Source of the DNA: Paulownia fortunei
Lineage: Eukaryota; Streptophyta; Magnoliopsida; Lamiales; Paulowniaceae
Reading direction: 5' to 3'
Assembly: GCA_019321725.1 (NCBI GenBank)
Contig: CM033110.1
Coordinates: 22,127,210 to 22,191,209 of the forward strand
Length of the DNA: 64,000 nucleotides
Below, in pieces: positions 1 to 43,977 of this stretch (positions are counted from its first letter, which is position 1; each line of letters begins with the position of its first letter). The notes beneath the pieces were generated by a model. The model was not told the DNA's origin and did not search any database. It saw only the letters and a program-made list of their open reading frames with translations. A program made the position numbers and the translations under genes.

Positions 1-1588
1 AGCAAAACTAGTGCAGACGGTACTAATTAGGTGCTGATCTTTTATTCATAACGCCATGCTGCTAATAGCTATTTTCAACTTCAATCAACTGTGCAGATTG
101 ATAAAAGGAATATATATATATACATATTTGTGTGTATATATATATATATAGGTTGGCTGGAACCTATTTAGATATCAGAATCTAGTTAGATCCTGAAAAT
201 CTGAAATAGTGATGGAAAAAGAACTTGGTGAAGATAATCAATATCAATGTACTTCTGGTGTTCAAGTTTTACCCAACAATTTCTACTTGTTCTTTGTGGA
301 CACCGATGCAATTTTGTAAGCTTACGCTTAAGATTGTCTTGAAATAGATTTCTTCTAATGTCATGACACTTTTTTGTATAGCATGCCTACGTTTACTGGT
401 CAGCCTATCAAGTTTGCCTAGTCCCATGTGGATGAATTTATGAAATAAATTTACTAGAATTAGCACTAAGGGTTTAATTTTGAATGAAAAAGATGACTGA
501 TACAATAGAACATGTAAACTCGACCATCATTTTCACAGTTCACATGCGCCAGAATGAAGGGATGATACCTTAAGAAAACATAGAATTTCAGCCAATAAAC
601 ACACACACACACTACATTACAACTATGTGTGAGCGTTAATGATCTTTGGTGGGGGTGGTTGTTGGGAGTGGGGGAACGGATTTCGTATTATCACTTAGTG
701 ACAAAATTTGTGAAATGAAGAAAATAACAAAATCATAGGCACGAAAATTTATAAGCAGCCATGTACGAGGAGTCACTGCTTAAAAAGAGAAATAAACGAG
801 CATTCCTGCATAATAAATGCCAAAAAGCTGTAAAAAGAACAAAAGGTCTAGGTTGATCTTCATTCCGACAGGGTTCACTTTGACCACCAAGTCACAAACC
901 CAAAAATTTTGGGACTCATATAGTTAATAAAATAAGTGACATTTGCTAGAATGGCCCCCATAATTTGCCACTTCCAGAAAACCGACTCAAACTAGTATTC
1001 TTGATGATACTGCTTTATCTCAGGGGCAAAAGTTTCTGTTTATTTAATGTCCACTTCTGATACGACCAATTAACGGGATTTCCTGCCTATCAAAATGTTC
1101 CTACAGGCTACAAACAAAAATCAATTCGCCAACTTGGTAATAGTGGACAAGGACAAAATCAAAAGAGTTCAAAAGAAGGTAAGAAGATACCTTGGAGGAA
1201 AGAAAAGAAACTAGAAAAGACTTATTCTAAGCAATAAAGATAGATGAGCAGAAACAGCATAAAATCAAGCATCTCCAAAATGAGACGATGACACACGCGG
1301 TGATCCGAGTACATTTGTACTAGAAAGAAAGATAAACCAAAGGGTATCAAGCTGTGATGAAAGATCAATGCAAGATTCTCACGTTTTTATTAAACGAGGT
1401 TGTTGAAAAAGACTTTAAAAGGGAGTACATGAAATTAAAGGCAGTGAGAAAATCCTTGACCGACACAGCCCTCAAGAAAGACATGGAATTTGATCAAGAA
1501 TCTTATAATTGTTGTTCTTGATCATAAATTATGAAAAGATACAAAATTTCTAGAAAAAGGATTAATAAGAACTGTATATGAAAATTAC
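1..1588 (-). other. 5' part of intron 1 of the AP1-type MADS gene
   Basis: This stretch lies downstream (minus strand) of the MADS exon 1 donor at 1588. I looked for the next AP1-family exon, the short one coding a peptide like MERILERYERY, on the minus strand and did not find it. Intron 1 is therefore longer than 1.58 kb and the rest of the gene lies outside the window. A long first intron is usual for AP1/FUL genes. The interval also holds a short TA repeat near 112-150 and an AC repeat near 600. Confidence 0.7.
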
Positions 1589-7400: not shown

Positions 7401-9883
7401 GTGGGCCTTAATTATATATATATTTGATGTGATATCACCTATTTGTTGGAAACTCCTATTTAGAAGTCAACTATAAGATGGATTACTTTTTACATCACAA
7501 AAAATCATTAGGGGTGTGGGTCCTCAGACCTCGTGGGTTTAGTCGGAGCACTACAACCCAACTCCGTATATTGATTTGTGGACCCTATAAATTTGGCCTA
7601 TCGAATCATGTTTTTGTTTCGATCCATAGTTTAAACGGATCTTTTAGATTTAAGTCCTTGGATCTATTTTAGATTTATAACCCATCAATATTCTTATTTT
7701 TTTAATAAAAGAGAGAGAGATGAATGCAGGATACTATATATGCAAGCATGGTAACTTAAGGGAATATGTGTCTTCATGAATCTAGGAACATTTCTTTGCA
7801 TTGTATCTAGTTGGTCTATATATTGGAAATGATAAATTTTGAGATTATGCAGGATTTATACCTTTTTTTTTTTTTTTTTTTGGTTTCACTATATTTTATC
7901 CCTAAAAGGTCATTCTTTGTTCCAAATATTCAAGGACAACCTATTATAAGAAGTTTTTAGTGAAAAAACGAACTTAGCTGGTACCCTCTTAGGGCATCGT
8001 AATGAAGACAAACATAAAATAGGAATTCTGTTAGATTCACTTGCTATTGGAATTCCTAGTCAAAATCATCCACAGACATTGATGAAATGCAAACACGTGA
8101 TAGCATGATTATTGTGATTGTTCATCATCACAGTCATCTGCAGGATAATTGTTAAATTTTGAATTATAAGATAATTTTGAAAAAATAAAAAATAATGCGT
8201 GATTTGACTATTTAACCTACATCCACTAATAAAATATTGAAATAACTAGAAGATTACATATTATTCTCTCTTATCATCATAATTGAAGAAAACATATATT
8301 CTACTATCCAACATGTATTATTCATAATTAAATTGATTTTGATTTGATTTTGATATTAATATATATAATATCAGTCAAGTTGGGGCAAGTGGTGTGAAAT
8401 AATACTGGATGTGCAATCTGGACCAATCATGTGATCTAGAATATTAGAAATCAAAGATCACGAATCAATTGTGTCCTCCATACATTTTTTTGATTGGTAA
8501 AGAGTGGAAGACAACATTTGTCCTGGTTGTGGAAGACAATTGTGTAAAATATTTACCTTAAAAACAACCACAGAAACTCAAAAGAGAAAGAACCTACCGA
8601 AATATCTTTGTTTCATGCTTCGGTCTGCCTATACAAATGTTTATATGCAGAAGAGATCTCTGTCAGCTTTTAATCGTACCCCACTTAAAAAAGGTTATTA
8701 TAGATATTGGGAGGATAAATGCCAATGTAGTTTATACATAGAAATTAGAAGTATTTCTACTTATATTTTATATATAGCTTTTTAATTATAATTTTTAAAT
8801 TCGAGGATCTAATTCTAAGCATTTGAACGTCATGAGTTTTTGAATAAAATATACAATTATATTAGAAGCGACAAAAAATTAAGATACCAAGAATTTCTTT
8901 TTACACTATGTAAGAAAGGATAAGAGAAAAATAATGATAGTTAAATTAGTAGAATAGTTTATTTTTTACGAACAATTTTCCACAATGAAAATCAGTGTCT
9001 TACTGATTTTATAAGTGGTGGTGGTGTAAAGCTCTTAAATACTAATGGGATCAAGCCCATATGAGGATAACTGGGCCCAAACAAATCGGACGTTGTCAAC
9101 ACTTACCCCTTGTATAGATTCAAGATTAACTCATCCACATGTTGTCTTGAGCAAACTGGAATGCCATTTCATTTTTTACTGGATTTTAATCCATTCGAAA
9201 ATGCACAAAAAACTAGTGTAATTTGTAAAATAGAAATCTCACTAGACATTGTTTTGATCTCTTCACAAGGTTTGGCAAACTAAAACAAACAACTCGCACC
9301 GCTTTGTTTGGGTATGAGTTTTGATAAGTATGGAGAACTTCACATTTGGTCGAACAAAAGGTTTACTTGTGGCATAGTTTGACCATTGTCAGTACAAACT
9401 TGTTTTAGGTGCCAAAGTCTTGCTTAGGTACCATCTCGAACACATGATATATATGGCAACATTAACCCCCCAAAAAACCAATTTGCACTTCAATAAACCA
9501 GACGTTCGAGAAAGCAATAGTCATATGAAAAAAGAATAGCACAAGAATAGGTTGTACACAACAAAGTTAAGAAGACTAGCACAAATCCAAACAACATTAC
9601 ACAACATGGAACTTTCGTTGTCTCTGATGAGTCTAAAAACGTAAAAGGCAAAACAGAGTCCCATTGCCTTTTGCCATAGCTCAATTTAGCAAGTTTCATA
9701 CATACATTTGAGTGATGAAATTCAAATATTTAGCAAATGATTTGGTCATATTTAAGACTCCAAAACGAAACTAACACTGCTGCAGTCCATTATTTAGATT
9801 GTATCTGGAAGCAGAATCCTTCTTACATAAAAATATATATACTTCTTTAACTTGGCAGGATTTTATTTTCCTTACTATAAAAT

Positions 9884-20477: not shown

Positions 20478-20548
20478 GGCCTATTAGCTCAGTTGGTTAG
20501 AGCGTCGTTATTACGCGAAGGTCCCAGATTTGAAACCTGCATGGGCTA
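20478..20548 (+). pseudogene. Degenerate tRNA-Ile
   Basis: The first 30 bases match plant tRNA-Ile(AAU) closely, including the D-loop and A box (TAGCTCAGTTGG), and the 3' end keeps the acceptor pairing GGCCTA...ATGGGCTA with one mismatch. The anticodon arm has lost about three bases and the AAT anticodon loop cannot form. The T-loop GTTCGA is changed to ATTTGA, which damages the B box. It is 71 nt long where 74 is normal. It is therefore probably a non-functional relic, not a working tRNA. Confidence 0.75.
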
Positions 20549-28495: not shown

Positions 28496-29755
28496 ATGAG
28501 TTCTTCATCTCCATCACAAAAGCCTGATGTGACCTTGTCCCTAAGTTTACCACCATCTCCCACAACAAATGATGGCCTAAATCCCCAAGAAAGGGGTATC
28601 AAACTAATCCAGCTCTTGCTAACATGTGCCAACCATGCGTCCTCCGGCAACCTCCAGCACGCCGACACCTGCCTCCGCCAGATTTCGCAGCTGGCCTCCG
28701 TCACCGGCGACTCCATGCAGCGGCTGGCGGCCAGGTTTGCCTCGGCGCTGGCGGCCCGGCTGGTTAAGCGCTGGCCTGGCCTCTACAAGGCCCTGAACAA
28801 TGGTGGGCTGGTTTGTTGTGATACCGATCGTGCTAGGTCCATTTTCATTAGAGCATTCCCTTGTTTGGGCTTTGCCTTTGCGGTTATAAACCGGACCTTG
28901 ATTCAAGCCATGTCGGGGGAACGTGTAATCCATGTTATTGATTTGGGCTGTGGTGACCCAAAGTTGTGGGTTCCTTTTATTCGGGGCGTTGCATATGGGC
29001 CTGATGGGCCTCCCCATTTGAAGATCACGTGTGTCAGTACAAACAAGGAGGCCCAAGAGAGGTTGGAGGCTAGGCTAGTAAAAGAGGCTGAGAGTTTGAA
29101 TATGCAATTTGAGTTCAACCCTGTAAATGCTAGGCTTAGAGAGCTGACCTTGGACATGCTCAAGGTCAAATCAGGTGAAGCATTAGCATTGACATCGATT
29201 TTGAGCCTTCATGTCCTACTGGCCGAGGATGACCGTGTCGATGCACATTTTGGGCTAAGCAAAAACAACCAAGTAAATGAAAGCAAGCGAATGAAGGAGT
29301 TCCTCGAAATGGTGAAGTCAATTGGGCCGAAGGCAGTGCTACTAGTCGAGCAAGAGTCGAACCACAATTCAAGTCGTTTAGTGGATCGATTTGTCGAAGG
29401 ATTGCACTTTTACAGTGCAGTGTTCGATTCGATAGATGTTGCATTTGGTGGATTCTCGTGCTCGGATCGCACGGCATTAGAAGATATGTTTGGAAAAGAA
29501 ATTGAGAATATTGTGGCAGGAGAAGGGCTGGAGAGGGAGGAGAGGCATGAAAGGTATGAAAAGTGGGCCATTAGGTTTGGAAGAGCGGGCTTTAGGCCCA
29601 TTCGTTTATGGTATGAAACAATGGAGGAGGCCCGGCAAGTGGTGGAGGCTTATGGGCCGGATGGCTTTAAGATAATTAGTCAGCAGGGAAGTTTGATGAT
29701 ATGTTGGCATGATAGGCCCATTTATGCAGTATCAGCATGGAATTGTTTTAGCTGA
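28496..29755 (+). CDS. SCL3: GRAS protein, SCARECROW-LIKE 3 type
   Basis: An intronless frame of 419 residues starts at the ATG at 28496; the frame is open a little upstream but only TTG and ATT codons precede it. The GRAS domain fills nearly all of it. LHR I has LIQLLLTCANHASSGNLQHA (about 37-56), the VHIID core is VIHVIDLG (144-151), PDGPPHLKIT follows, the PFYRE region has AVLLVEQES, and the SAW end is RPIYAVSAWNC (407-417). The LLTCANHASSG and RWPGLYKALN signatures point to the SCL3 clade. SCL3 is a nuclear coregulator that antagonises DELLA in gibberellin signalling and root endodermis. It has a short N-terminus with LSLSL at residues 14-18, an EAR-type repression motif I do not associate with Arabidopsis SCL3. 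The first third is markedly GC-rich for the region. Confidence 0.93.
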   Translation: MSSSSPSQKPDVTLSLSLPPSPTTNDGLNPQERGIKLIQLLLTCANHASSGNLQHADTCLRQISQLASVTGDSMQRLAARFASALAARLVKRWPGLYKALNNGGLVCCDTDRARSIFIRAFPCLGFAFAVINRTLIQAMSGERVIHVIDLGCGDPKLWVPFIRGVAYGPDGPPHLKITCVSTNKEAQERLEARLVKEAESLNMQFEFNPVNARLRELTLDMLKVKSGEALALTSILSLHVLLAEDDRVDAHFGLSKNNQVNESKRMKEFLEMVKSIGPKAVLLVEQESNHNSSRLVDRFVEGLHFYSAVFDSIDVAFGGFSCSDRTALEDMFGKEIENIVAGEGLEREERHERYEKWAIRFGRAGFRPIRLWYETMEEARQVVEAYGPDGFKIISQQGSLMICWHDRPIYAVSAWNCFS

Positions 29756-38027: not shown

Positions 38028-38099
38028 GTCGTTGTAGTATAGTGGTGAGTATTCCCGCCTGTCACGCGGGTGACCCGGGTTCGATCCCCGGCAACGGCG
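38028..38099 (+). tRNA. tRNA-Asp (anticodon GTC)
   Basis: A complete 72-nt cloverleaf can be read. The acceptor stem GTCGTTG pairs with CAACGGC, the D-arm carries the A box (TAGTATAGTGG), the anticodon arm CCCGC-CTGTCAC-GCGGG has GTC at 38061-38063, and the T-arm CCGGG-TTCGATC-CCCGG has the B box. No intron is present. It starts 7 bp after a CAACCAA tract (plant tRNA genes often carry upstream CAA) and is followed by a T5 terminator at 38100-38104. The discriminator base is G. It lies between TRM1 and UAM, unrelated to both. Confidence 0.98.
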
Positions 38100-38719: not shown

Positions 38720-40183
38720 TTAGTTCGCCTTGGCAGGGTTGAGCTCATCCCAAGCTTGAATCCAGGTCTCCATGGCATCTGCAAGCTTCACAAAATAAGG
38801 GTCTACTTTTCCAAGCTTTTCTTTAACCTGTTTGGCAAGTTCAATGTAACACTTCTGGACAGTGGTTGAGTCTTTGGAAAGGGTGGCAGCTTGGAAGAAA
38901 GGGATGATCTCTTCTTGCCAAAAGATGCCGTTGTACTCTTTCCTTAGGTTCACAAAGGGGTTGCTGGCCTTGCTGTGCCAAATGTATGGCAGCCCAGTCT
39001 TCACTCCCAATCCCATATGATCACAAATCACCTTAAGCAATCAAGAACAAGAATAAGACTTACAATTGTAACTGTGTCTGTGAAAGAAGGAAAAGGTTTA
39101 CAATCAAATTGCACTCCTGTTTTATAAATTCGATGCAGACAAACATTAACATAGTACTTTCTACCTAGACTTTTTTGACTTGTTTTCCTCAGTAAAGGCC
39201 CATGATAAAGAGTGTGACAAGAATTAGGAGAAGTGAAGACCACAACACAAACTGTACCTTGGTGCACCAGCCGGCCCACATATCATCATAGCGCCCAATT
39301 GGCTGACCATCTCCCATAAGGCCGAAATACATAGCAGGACCGATAAGATCACGGTCAAATGCCAGATTCATGCCACACATGGGAAAGAGGGTGCCCTTTG
39401 GTATTGTCAACACTGCATCAACAAACCTAATACACACATGACAAAGTAAGACCACACTTGAGAATGTCAAATAATGATCGTCTAATGAGTAAATTTGGAG
39501 TGAAATAAGGATATTTCGTTACTTAGTGTTTCTCTCCAGAGGCTTGACAAGCTGTGTTGGAGCATCATAATCAGGGATGTTCAACCAGAGGCCATGAGAG
39601 ACAGCTGTCGGCACACCCTCTCTTAGGCTGAAAGGGTATCCACGCACGAAATCTGAGCCTTCCCTGAAAGGGTCATACAATGTGTTGAAGAAAAGTGGGG
39701 TTGATGGGGAGAGCAGATTCTTGATATGTTGTTCCAGGGCATTGATCTGTTTGCCAGAGGGGTCTTTTGCAACCTATTTTCGTCTTCCATTAATTAGGCT
39801 TTCAAATTAAAAACAAGCTCAATATTATTTTATTGACAAATCAATACTTTAACATATATAAAGCAACTTACAAAGCAGTCATCATCAATAGTGAAGATAT
39901 ACTTCTTCTTGGAGACCATATATCCAAAGCATCGACAAGCGGAGTCCTTGAAGGAAATGCAGGAAGCCTTGGGGCCAAGAATTCGGTTAATATCATTGCG
40001 ATTGTATAGCTCGTAATCAAAGCCATCAGGCACCTTGATGATCTTTGATGGGTCGCCATCCTGCACTATGATCAGGTGGTATTGCTCGAAGAATGGCCTC
40101 CACATCTCCAAGAAATCGAGGTTTCGGATCGTGGGTATCACGATATCCAGCTCATCTTTCAGTGGCGGTGCTGCGGCTGCCAT
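38720..40183 (-). CDS. UAM1: UDP-arabinopyranose mutase / reversibly glycosylated polypeptide
   Basis: Four exons join on the minus strand to 347 residues: 39872-40183, 39523-39773, 39258-39426 and 38720-39031. The protein interconverts UDP-arabinopyranose and UDP-arabinofuranose on the cytosolic side of the Golgi, feeding wall arabinan and glycoprotein synthesis. Recognisable family blocks are [20 protein letters not shown] (13-32), the TIDDDCF metal/nucleotide motif (98-104), YPFSLREG with the Arg used for reversible self-glycosylation, and [20 protein letters not shown]. The C-terminus, with [10 protein letters not shown], is typical of class 1 RGPs. No signal peptide is visible, as expected for a peripheral Golgi protein. 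A TATA-like TTATAATAA lies about 110 bp upstream of the start codon. Confidence 0.96.
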
Positions 40184-41984
40184 GGCGGCGAACGGCGGAG
40201 GAGGAAAGAGAGATAGATCTAAAAGGTGGTGGAGAAGAGAAGCGTTACAAAGAGTGATGTATTATGTGAGTGAGTGTTTGAAGAAGGTACAACGTTATTA
40301 TAAGGAAAAAACGCGGGAGCGGTGGAAACGGCACTTATGGCGGGGGAGGTGTCTGGAGGGATTTTTTGTATGGTTGGGGCATTGTTCAAAATGAGGTCGT
40401 TGACCCGAATTTAATGGTGTACCTTTTGCTATTTTGATTTCTTGAGTATTTTTCTTTTTTAGGGGGAGATTTTCATTGTTTGATTTTGTTTAATGGAGAA
40501 TAATTTAGTGGACAGGTATATTTGAGTGTTCATACTTAATTTATCTCATGAAGTGAAACGAGTTTGTTTTCGTAAATTTTTGGACATTAAATAGTATCTG
40601 AAGTTAGATACAATATATATTTTTTTCATTATTTTAATTATCAAGCATTTCAAACAACAATAATGACATACATTTATCTCTCATCAACTGAAAAGTGTAT
40701 ATTTAATGTGAATTTTTTTGAAAATATAAATTTCGACCCCTTAATATTCTTATGTTATTTAGATGTGACATGTAGTTTAGTAAGAAGAAGCAATTTTATT
40801 TTATTTTTGTTTCTATTTTTGCTTTTATATTTCTTTTGCTAAGAAAAAAAAAAAATAGCATTTTTCAACTGAGAAGGGGAATTTGGAAAAAGGAAGAAGA
40901 ATCCGTGTCTGAGAAAGCAACATCACTTGCAAGAAAGAGTTGGTTCTTTCAGCGTTAATGAAGGGGATTCATTAATGCTTGGGAACATATCTTAATAAAA
41001 GTTATTTACTTTACATTCAAAATAAGAATTTTCGCATTTAATTATCCCCTTGTGGAATTACAAGATTTCTTTTACATTATATTTGTACCTAAATTTTTAT
41101 TAAGGAAAAGGAAAAGCATGAAAAAACAAAATCCATTGCATTTCCCTTTCTTTGTTGGGTAAAATAAACATCAATACTGCAATTAAATATAATGGAGAAA
41201 ACTTAAATATCGCTCATAGTTATTATTGCACAATATTTTCTTCCCATTTTTCCTTTAATCAAACGGGGAATATTATATTCCTCAAAACTTTCCTCCAAAA
41301 GTCCAAGATCGAAATAAATTAATAAAGGTAATTTATTGTTTTCCAAACTGAAATGAAATAAATACTAGTATGATAAATAAATGAAATTGAATAATAGGCT
41401 TGGTGAAAACGACAGAGTTGGTTTAAGCATCAAGAAACGCTAAGGAGAACGTGCAGGGTTGATTCTTCATACTTCTGCAACCTGACGTTAGAGGATTATG
41501 GATCATTATTTAAAACTCATGGTGGTGATCACTATACATTTTAGAATGTTCTACAATATCAAACTGATAATTCATAACGTTTGAGTTATTTATCTATAAC
41601 GATTAATAAGGATAAGTGGGACTAATCCAACATACTACAAACCGGCACTTGTACTAAATTACATCGAAAAAAAGAAAAAAAACATCCAAATATCACTTTC
41701 CATTATGTAAATCAATGAATGGATTTATTTCATAACCTCTATAATTTCTAATTGATCGTGTTAACTCTCAAAATCGAATAGATTTAGTTTCGATATCTTT
41801 TGTCATATTATTCAGATTTTTACGCACATTTTATCCATCCAGAATACTACATCATTATGTATATGTATAAAATGGACCTTTTTGTTATAAAACACAATTA
41901 CAAATGAATGAACATTTGTTCATACCTTATGCTCCAGGGTTGCACCCTCTATTTCCCAGTGTGAGACAGTGGTGCCAAGTCCTC
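40184..41984. other. Divergent spacer between UAM and the telomerase RNA candidate
   Basis: The left 250 bases are the UAM promoter and 5' UTR. The rest is AT-rich without a supported gene. Confidence 0.6.
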
Positions 41985-42026
41985 ATCCCACATCACTTTC
42001 CCACTGAAAGTTTTACATCTTTAAAA
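41985..42026 (+). promoter_or_regulatory. USE plus TATA, RNA polymerase III type snRNA promoter
   Basis: ATCCCACATCA (41985-41995) matches the plant upstream sequence element RTCCCACATCG at 10 of 11 positions. A TATA-like TTTAAAA begins at 42020, leaving 24 bp between the two. In plants that spacing marks polymerase III transcription (U6, U3, MRP, telomerase RNA), while about 33-34 bp marks polymerase II snRNAs. The start site is predicted near 42050. Confidence 0.82.
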
Positions 42027-42049
42027 CCTCAGACGTAAGAAAATTGCAT

Positions 42050-42318
42050 AATTGTGGAGGGTGTGGGGCTGGGGTTGTACACGCTTATTTGAACCCTAAA
42101 CTGTCTCTCTTATCAGAGTTAAATGACAAACGAAAGGGGGTGTTTCTCCGGCGTTTTTACCCCTAGACTTCCAGTCTTAATAAACGCCGATGCTTTGCGT
42201 GTGCAGTTCCCAGAGTGCGGATCCGATCCCCTCGAGTGGTTGGAAGGTGGTGCTGCTTGCGTTGTACACGTGTCTCGCGGTCACTGGTTGTCCTCGCCAC
42301 TCTGAAGCACCCTCATTT
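42050..42318 (+). ncRNA. TR: Candidate telomerase RNA (template-bearing RNA)
   Basis: The predicted transcript is about 270 nt, within the size range of plant telomerase RNAs. AACCCTAAAC at 42092-42101 is complementary to one and a half plant telomere repeats (TTTAGGG), as a reverse-transcription template should be. Downstream, GGGGT (42137-42141) can pair with ACCCC (42159-42163) while GGCGTTT (42150-42156) pairs with AAACGCC (42182-42188). The interleaved order makes an H-type pseudoknot with a U-rich stretch (42154-42158), as in the core of telomerase RNAs. GAGGGTG (42057-42063) pairs with CACCCTC (42308-42314), closing the molecule. The promoter is of the USE/TATA polymerase III type and a T6 terminator follows. 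The local GC content is well above the flanks. The 60-codon open frame inside it has no recognised domain. Both ends are estimates. The internal T5 at 42154 is a possible early terminator and a caveat. Another USE-driven RNA with a chance template is the main alternative. Confidence 0.82.
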
Positions 42319-42321
42319 TTT
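42316..42321 (+). terminator. RNA polymerase III T6 terminator
   Basis: Six T residues directly follow the 3' strand of the terminal stem of the telomerase RNA candidate, where polymerase III would stop. Confidence 0.75.
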
Positions 42322-43977
42322 CTGACTTGTCGTTGAACTGTTCCATCAATATTTTTGCTTTTTTTTTTATTTTTTTTTATTTTTTTGGTTTTAGTTATAT
42401 AGTTAGCAGATTTTCTAGACAGAAAAATGCTTTTACTTCTTGCTTAAGTAAAATTGAAAAAATAGTAACTTTTTATTGACAATTATTGTTACCAAAAATG
42501 TTCAAAATTTTCTATTGTTTATATGAAACCCATTCTTCTATAAAAAAAGGTGATTGTGTTTGTATGGTTTTTAGGGCTTATATTTTGAAACAAATGTCTT
42601 TCTGCAAAATCATTGTTGATAGATTAAATCCACACGTCTGAGGTTAGGCCCAATTACTGAAATAATTCTTCTGTCTGAATGGGTGTTTTTGTAATTGAAT
42701 CTATTTGGTTTGGATGCTACTTATGATATATATTGAATTTAAGAAGATTTTAATATTCATTTGTTCAATTTTTTATTACAATTTGTTGATTTTTAAGGAG
42801 TTTTAATTATTATTATTTTTCTATCATATTTAGCATTTTATTTATAGTAATTTTACTCAATATAAAATATAAAATACTTGGAGACAAAATTTAGATTCAA
42901 CTCCATAATATGCACTTTTCTTAAACCCATATGGGATATACATCTGTTTTAAATTCTCGATTAATTTATTTCAATTATTTTATAAAATAATATTGTGTCG
43001 AAATTAGTAATTTGCTTTGGTAAACTACCAAAAATCAGATAAACAAGTCATACTAATTTTTTGAGTAATCAAAATTTCAATTAAATTCAACAAATGCGTA
43101 TCACATTATAATGTAATTTCTAAAAAAATAAAAAAAATTAGATTTTCCAGATATATAAGATTTTCTAATACATTTTCTAACTAGCTAGGTTCATCCAAAA
43201 AAGCCAAAGCAGTTTGTTTGAATGTACAAAAGTATTATTTAAAAAATAGTATACTTATCTTTTTTAATAATAAATGAAGATAGCAATATATAAATAAATA
43301 AGATATGTTCAAAAATATATAAGAGAAATAAGAAGGGTGGGGGTGGATCCCGCCTAAAGTCTTTTTATCTTTTGGTCTCTAATCAGCTCAAAATAGCCGG
43401 AACCTCAGCAAGACGATATCCCGCCTAAAAATTTAAGCCGCGAAGATTTGCAGAGATTTGTTAATGGCGCAGATTAGTATCAAAACAAAACAAGGGACAG
43501 AAGAAGAACAGCGATTCACGAAACCGATGAAAATCTTGTGTTGGCACTCAGCAGCCCAAGAAGAGCTACCGCTAATAAATGGTAAAAAACCCATCACATA
43601 AACCGTACTGTCAAATTTTGATTTCCTGTTTAATAATTTTTTCCTTGACTAAGTTTATGTGGATTTCATATATAATTCACTTATTTACCCATTTAATTAT
43701 CTGTTAAATTATATTGTTCGTATTATGATTATATAAGAACATTACGAAAGACCATGCCCATCATCTTTGTTTGGTAAAGTTTCACGGGGGCAAAAAAATA
43801 ATTGCTGTTTTTTATTTTTATTTTTATTGTATATACATAGCAAATTAATGTACCCTGGCAAAATGGGTTTCAATTCTCTAATGCATGTGTTAGCTGAAAA
43901 TTTTTTGTACATCCAAAAAAGCTACTCTGATCTGCTGTGTTAATTTTTTTTTTCTCTGTACATTGTTCTTTGGGTGG
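42322..43977. other. Spacer between the telomerase RNA candidate and CYP85A1
   Basis: T-rich and AT-rich, no gene supported. A locally GC-richer patch at about 43330-43590 has short frames but no recognised protein. The right end, beside the CYP85A1 stop, is that gene's 3' flank. Confidence 0.55.

Follow-up and report, generated by a model that had tools for sequence, protein, structure and literature searches.

The plus strand between about 42051 and a T6 run at 42316-42321 represents, with a probability of roughly 95%, the telomerase RNA gene of the Lamiales plant Paulownia fortunei. It lies in a 64,000-nt window (the whole stretch of DNA analysed, C6:22127210-22191209) of a 509-Mb assembly, whose 1247 contigs include masked stretches; contigs C1-C20 measure 15.8-32.1 Mb, C21 and C22 less than 19 kb. 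According to the available text of PMC6765143, PMC7145096 and the review PMC12133305, plant telomerase RNAs are polymerase III RNAs with the same set of conserved regions. The reading as telomerase RNA, which an earlier note on this DNA had proposed, is supported by the class and spacing of the promoter, the length, the template, the repeat at the chromosome ends, the position of the pseudoknot, a single copy according to BLAST and the presence of a TERT locus in the assembly. The locus very probably belongs to an established class of genes and is newly mapped in the Paulownia genome, and it may have been listed earlier in the supplementary tables of telomerase RNA papers.

The small-RNA genes of the same genome, U6 and U2, served as a yardstick for promoter spacing. 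U6 matched at 26 places, 20 of which were read. The six best loci (at least 110.9 bits) carry the upstream element (USE) TCCCACAT at -65 and TTTATA at -31 (TTCATA in L069), and display the same 34-bp offset between the starts of both elements as the candidate (Table 1). The two next best, L071 and L072, likewise have an offset of 34, provided that in L072 the second, overlapping USE is used, and the other 12 of the 20 are without an exact USE at that place. Among the U2 genes (30 matches, 12 loci read) the offset from a USE with at most one mismatch to TATAAA is 41, 44, 41 and 41 in L085, L086, L089 and L093, while in L065 and L066, two of the U6 genes, this measure yields 36. The remaining eight U2 loci are masked or miss at least one of the two elements. 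U2 genes and fragments cluster on C5 near 21.46-21.48 Mb and on C18 near 1.90 Mb.

The U6-like rather than U2-like offset of the candidate leads us to expect transcription by polymerase III from a type-3 (USE/TATA) promoter, beginning near 42051, and a start at this position places the beginning of the template at nt 42. The snRNA-type promoter and the T6 stop of the earlier note are hereby confirmed, and its start at 42050 differs by a single base. The U6 genes also share the T-run terminator with the candidate, but they encode a different RNA, and Rfam yields no U6 match at the candidate locus. The Arabidopsis telomerase RNA (AtTR, also AtR8) is described with a polymerase III type promoter, as predicted here. 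Telomerase RNA genes of Mimulus, of the same order, possess the same USE followed by a TATA box, and the Mimulus paper cites this USE from earlier work for the surveyed Lamiales (PMC12169523, in its available text). Their TATA box lies 28-30 bp downstream of the USE as opposed to 26 bp between the boxes of the candidate, a difference that we count against our reading, although 26 bp is the distance in the U6 genes.

Table 1. Elements of the predicted telomerase RNA gene (window positions; nt 1 = 42051, except that the shuffle test of the helices took nt 1 = 42050)
Feature	Position	RNA nt	Strand	Sequence	Basis or remark
USE	41986..41993		+	TCCCACAT	exact; spaced like that of the six top-scoring U6 genes
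TATA-like box	42020..42026		+	TTTAAAA	start 34 bp past USE start
Predicted gene body	42051..42321		+		inferred start into T run
End-closing helix (8 bp), 5' arm	42057..42064	7-14	+	GAGGGTGT	predicted fold, helix list
G-rich 5' region	42059-42068	9-18	+	GGGTGTGGGG	shares GGGTGTGGG (9 nt) with the 5' AtR8 primer
P1, 5' arm	42071..42084	21-34	+	GGGGTTGTACACGC	pairs with 42197-42210
Template	42092..42101	42-51	+	AACCCTAAAC (RNA AACCCUAAAC)	complement of (TTTAGGG)n over 10 nt
P2, 5' arm	42136..42141	86-91	+	GGGGGT	pseudoknot search; G run nt 86-90
P3, 5' arm	42149..42156	99-106	+	CGGCGTTT	pseudoknot search, helix list
P2, 3' arm	42159..42163	109-113	+	ACCCC	pseudoknot search
P3, 3' arm	42182..42189	132-139	+	AAACGCCG	C, G, G at nt 135, 136, 139
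P1, 3' arm	42197..42210	147-160	+	GCGTGTGCAGTTCC	helix list
Candidate P4, 5' arm	42234..42239	184-189	+	GAGTGG	at AtTR position
Candidate P4, 3' arm	42297..42302	247-252	+	CCACTC	at AtTR position
End-closing helix, 3' arm	42307..42314	257-264	+	GCACCCTC	C-rich; predicted fold, helix list
Predicted polymerase III terminator	42316-42321		+	T6	sequence

The 10-nt telomeric tract of the earlier note is present at the expected place and is the only exact occurrence of AACCCTAAAC on either strand of the window. It exceeds one telomere repeat in length and is complementary to the repeat found on chromosome ends. By itself the tract is a weak signal, as it appears in 16 of 100 dinucleotide shuffles of the window. 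Under a composite rule, which like all its variants was fixed after the site had been seen, an exact USE, a TATA-like box 22-30 bp on, the 10-nt tract and a T5 stop coincide once in the window and in 1 of 5000 shuffled windows. Shorter tracts of 9, 8 and 7 nt give 4, 6 and 13 of 5000 shuffles, respectively, and a looser rule with one USE mismatch, equally defined after the fact, is satisfied in 6 (9-nt tract) and 26 (8-nt tract) of 1000 shuffles. The type-3 promoter is common to plant U6 and other small-RNA genes (the U6 genes here; review PMC12133305, in its available text), and the frequency of the 10-mer among shuffled windows would allow for an accidental telomere-like tract in some other polymerase III RNA gene. 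We regard such an accident as very improbable, given that the window holds no RNA above the Rfam threshold except two tRNAs, and that P1 and the pseudoknot are placed as in the Arabidopsis telomerase RNA.

The predicted product of the telomerase RNA gene is about 265-270 nt long, in agreement with the approximately 270 nt of the earlier note, and its length and T-run terminator fit what is published for land-plant telomerase RNAs, whose lengths range over 234-390 nt (PMC12169523, available text). Its G+C content is 52% (42050-42315), compared to 32% in the window. Two results of folding speak against the reading. The energy is only modestly low, with 13 of 200 shuffles as low for 42050-42318 (z -1.77) and 1 of 200 for 42057-42315 (z -2.15), and the minimum-energy fold, which is pseudoknot-free by design, retains P1 and P3 but pairs template bases 42093-42097 with the 5' arm of P2. 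At the 3' end the C-rich GCACCCTC is present, and an AT-rich region is not evident inside the RNA.

P1 is an uninterrupted helix of 14 pairs, including four G-U, and ends 7 nt before the template; only 1 of 2000 shuffles has a P1 as strong at an Arabidopsis-like place. The earlier note had named a downstream pseudoknot merely as a trait of the family, and it can now be located 3' of the template as a predicted H-type P2/P3 pseudoknot (42136-42189), equalled at Arabidopsis-like places in 11 of 2000 shuffles and, irrespective of position, in the core of 9 of 2000. The tolerance in these comparisons was 10 nt for the pseudoknot and P4, with wider limits for P1. A P4 helix at an AtTR-like place is matched by 171 of 2000 shuffles, a chance-level result that counts against the reading, and CACTCTG beside its 3' arm can alternatively pair with CAGAGTG at 42211. 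None of the 2000 shuffles combines P1, pseudoknot and P4 of at least this strength at the Arabidopsis-like positions. A segment near the 5' end of the RNA (42058-42083) recurs 187 nt further on at 42245-42270 (77% over 26 nt, including GTTGTACACG), and this second copy could compete for the pairing of P1. A perfect 12-bp inverted repeat (42025-42036/42634-42645) spans the gene and is provisionally ascribed to chance.

For AtTR, the available text of PMC11093817 gives a length of 262 nt, a pseudoknot fragment of nt 25-150, P2 residues G86, G88, G89 and G90, P3 residues C129, G130 and G133, and P4 at 179-187/241-249. The G run of P2 in the candidate agrees with that of AtTR, whereas the corresponding C, G and G in the 3' arm of P3 follow 6 nt later; the displacement of elements after P2 amounts to about 6 nt at most, and the candidate P4 lies within about 6 nt of its counterpart. 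AtTR is similar in length to the candidate, and its stated template is CTAAACCCT (PMC6765143, available text) compared to AACCCTAAAC in Paulownia. Its end sequences were taken from the AtR8 cloning primers (PMC7151572) and cover partial ends only. The G-rich 5' end with GGGTGTGGG is common to both RNAs and stands at the right place; however, 9-mers of the 5' primer also occur at three other places on the plus strand and one on the minus strand of the window, where the primer has its best local match at 7481-7511, away from the candidate. The 3' primer sequence has no match at the 3' end of the candidate, and we count this absence and the better 5' primer match elsewhere against our reading. 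In Mimulus the telomerase RNA genes are somewhat longer (278-317 bp); section Diplacus has an AACCCTA-type template like that of the candidate, in contrast to the altered templates and telomeres of several other groups (PMC12169523, available text).

Telomere repeats were sought in 4 kb of sequence at each of 38 termini of the large contigs, namely the starts of all 20 and the ends of C1 to C18. Arrays of at least 12 copies of TTTAGGG/CCCTAAA in telomere orientation are found at five of the 38, with 12 copies at the start of C11, 66 at the start of C14, 259 at the end of C2, 42 at the end of C9 and 15 at the end of C15. The other 33 ends, including the start of C4, which is mostly N, have at most four copies, and some arrays end short of the last base of the contig. 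TTTCGGG is present in no more than one copy at each of the 38 ends, and the end of C2 additionally holds 11 copies of TTAGGGTTAGGG. The template of the candidate fits the TTTAGGG repeat, and this fit is informative because some groups of Mimulus, another genus of Lamiales, show TTTCGGG or TTTCGG telomeres together with matching changes of the template (PMC12169523, in its available text).

A locus for the expected protein partner, TERT, is present in this genome. The Telomerase_RBD family matches a single place, on C2, inside an open frame of 418 aa. This frame continues past the domain into a probable reverse-transcriptase motif.

With respect to copy number, BLAST with the candidate against the 509-Mb assembly retrieves only the candidate itself, i.e., one copy, and a missing match is not proof of rarity. 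A pattern similar to USE, TATA box and template occurs at two places in the assembly, the candidate and one on C4. The latter was rejected on account of the 25% G+C of its next 266 nt and the lack of a G-rich start. A different and better telomerase RNA locus in the same genome, the finding which the earlier note had set against its own reading, was thus detected neither by BLAST nor by the pattern search. Scanning the window and 41700-42700 with Rfam produced no match at the candidate locus, a point against the reading, though Rfam is not known to include a family for plant telomerase RNAs. Pattern scans of viral contigs returned 0 and 21 places, and the 21 were set aside, as chance matches are expected for a G-rich pattern.

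We also have to consider that the locus is a silent or decaying paralogue and that the working gene resides elsewhere, perhaps in a gap of the assembly or in a form that BLAST no longer recognises. Species of Mimulus do have telomerase RNA paralogues, one of them probably non-functional (PMC12169523, available text), and the fragmentation and masking of the present assembly, together with the limited meaning of a missing BLAST match, leave some room for a second locus. Nevertheless, promoter, template, pseudoknot and terminator look intact here, and neither search yielded another convincing place; we therefore consider a decayed paralogue unlikely.

By analogy with known plant telomerase RNAs, the predicted elements suggest how this telomerase RNA may work. 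Polymerase III would start about 31 bp past the beginning of the TATA-like box under the control of the type-3 promoter and stop in the T6 run. In the cell, the 14-bp P1 stem would close a loop that holds the template and the P2/P3 pseudoknot, and the pseudoknot and P4 would be bound by TERT. AACCCUAAAC would then be copied into TTTAGGG repeats, with the three nucleotides beyond one repeat used for realignment, and P1, 7 nt upstream of the template, may set the 5' limit of copying.

At the level of gene families, the genomic neighbourhood agrees with the UAM and CYP85A1 genes named in the earlier note. An RGP (UAM) gene is identified by Pfam in both frames tested (38720-39040 and 39830-40261, minus strand), and the neighbour on the other side belongs to the P450 family (Pfam match in one of three frames tested between 45338 and 46841, minus strand). 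MADS-box, GRAS (SCL3-like) and RGP/UAM genes stand in a row at 13297-40261, an arrangement that resembles the SEP-TRM1-RGP regions on chromosomes 3 and 5 of Arabidopsis. The best named matches of the GRAS protein (28496-29755) are from Lamiales, with 85% for Rehmannia glutinosa and 83% for Sesamum. Two tRNA genes are located on the plus strand at 38028-38099 (60.3 bits) and 20478-20548 (33.9 bits; both by Rfam).

Plant promoters often contain short telomere-like motifs (PMC6765143, available text), and the tract could in principle be a telo-box of the UAM gene, without any RNA gene. This is extremely improbable, as the tract lies upstream of the UAM frame by some 1.9 kb, and a telo-box would leave the USE, the U6-spaced TATA-like box, the GC-rich structured body and the T6 run unexplained. 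Regarding the position of the telomerase RNA gene, it is possible, if rather doubtful, that the gene occupies a lineage-specific place and arrived there through a transposition-like duplication, as has been suggested for Mimulus.

The present locus would escape protein-based annotation, and its recognition locates a telomerase RNA gene in a Lamiales genome assembled to chromosome scale. The work on Mimulus shows that telomere repeats change and telomerase RNA genes occupy non-syntenic places in this order (PMC12169523, in its available text). The locus adds a TTTAGGG-type point of comparison with position, promoter and template. If the gene indeed arrived by duplication, the interval between UAM and P450 would mark one step in the relocation of the telomerase RNA gene within Lamiales.
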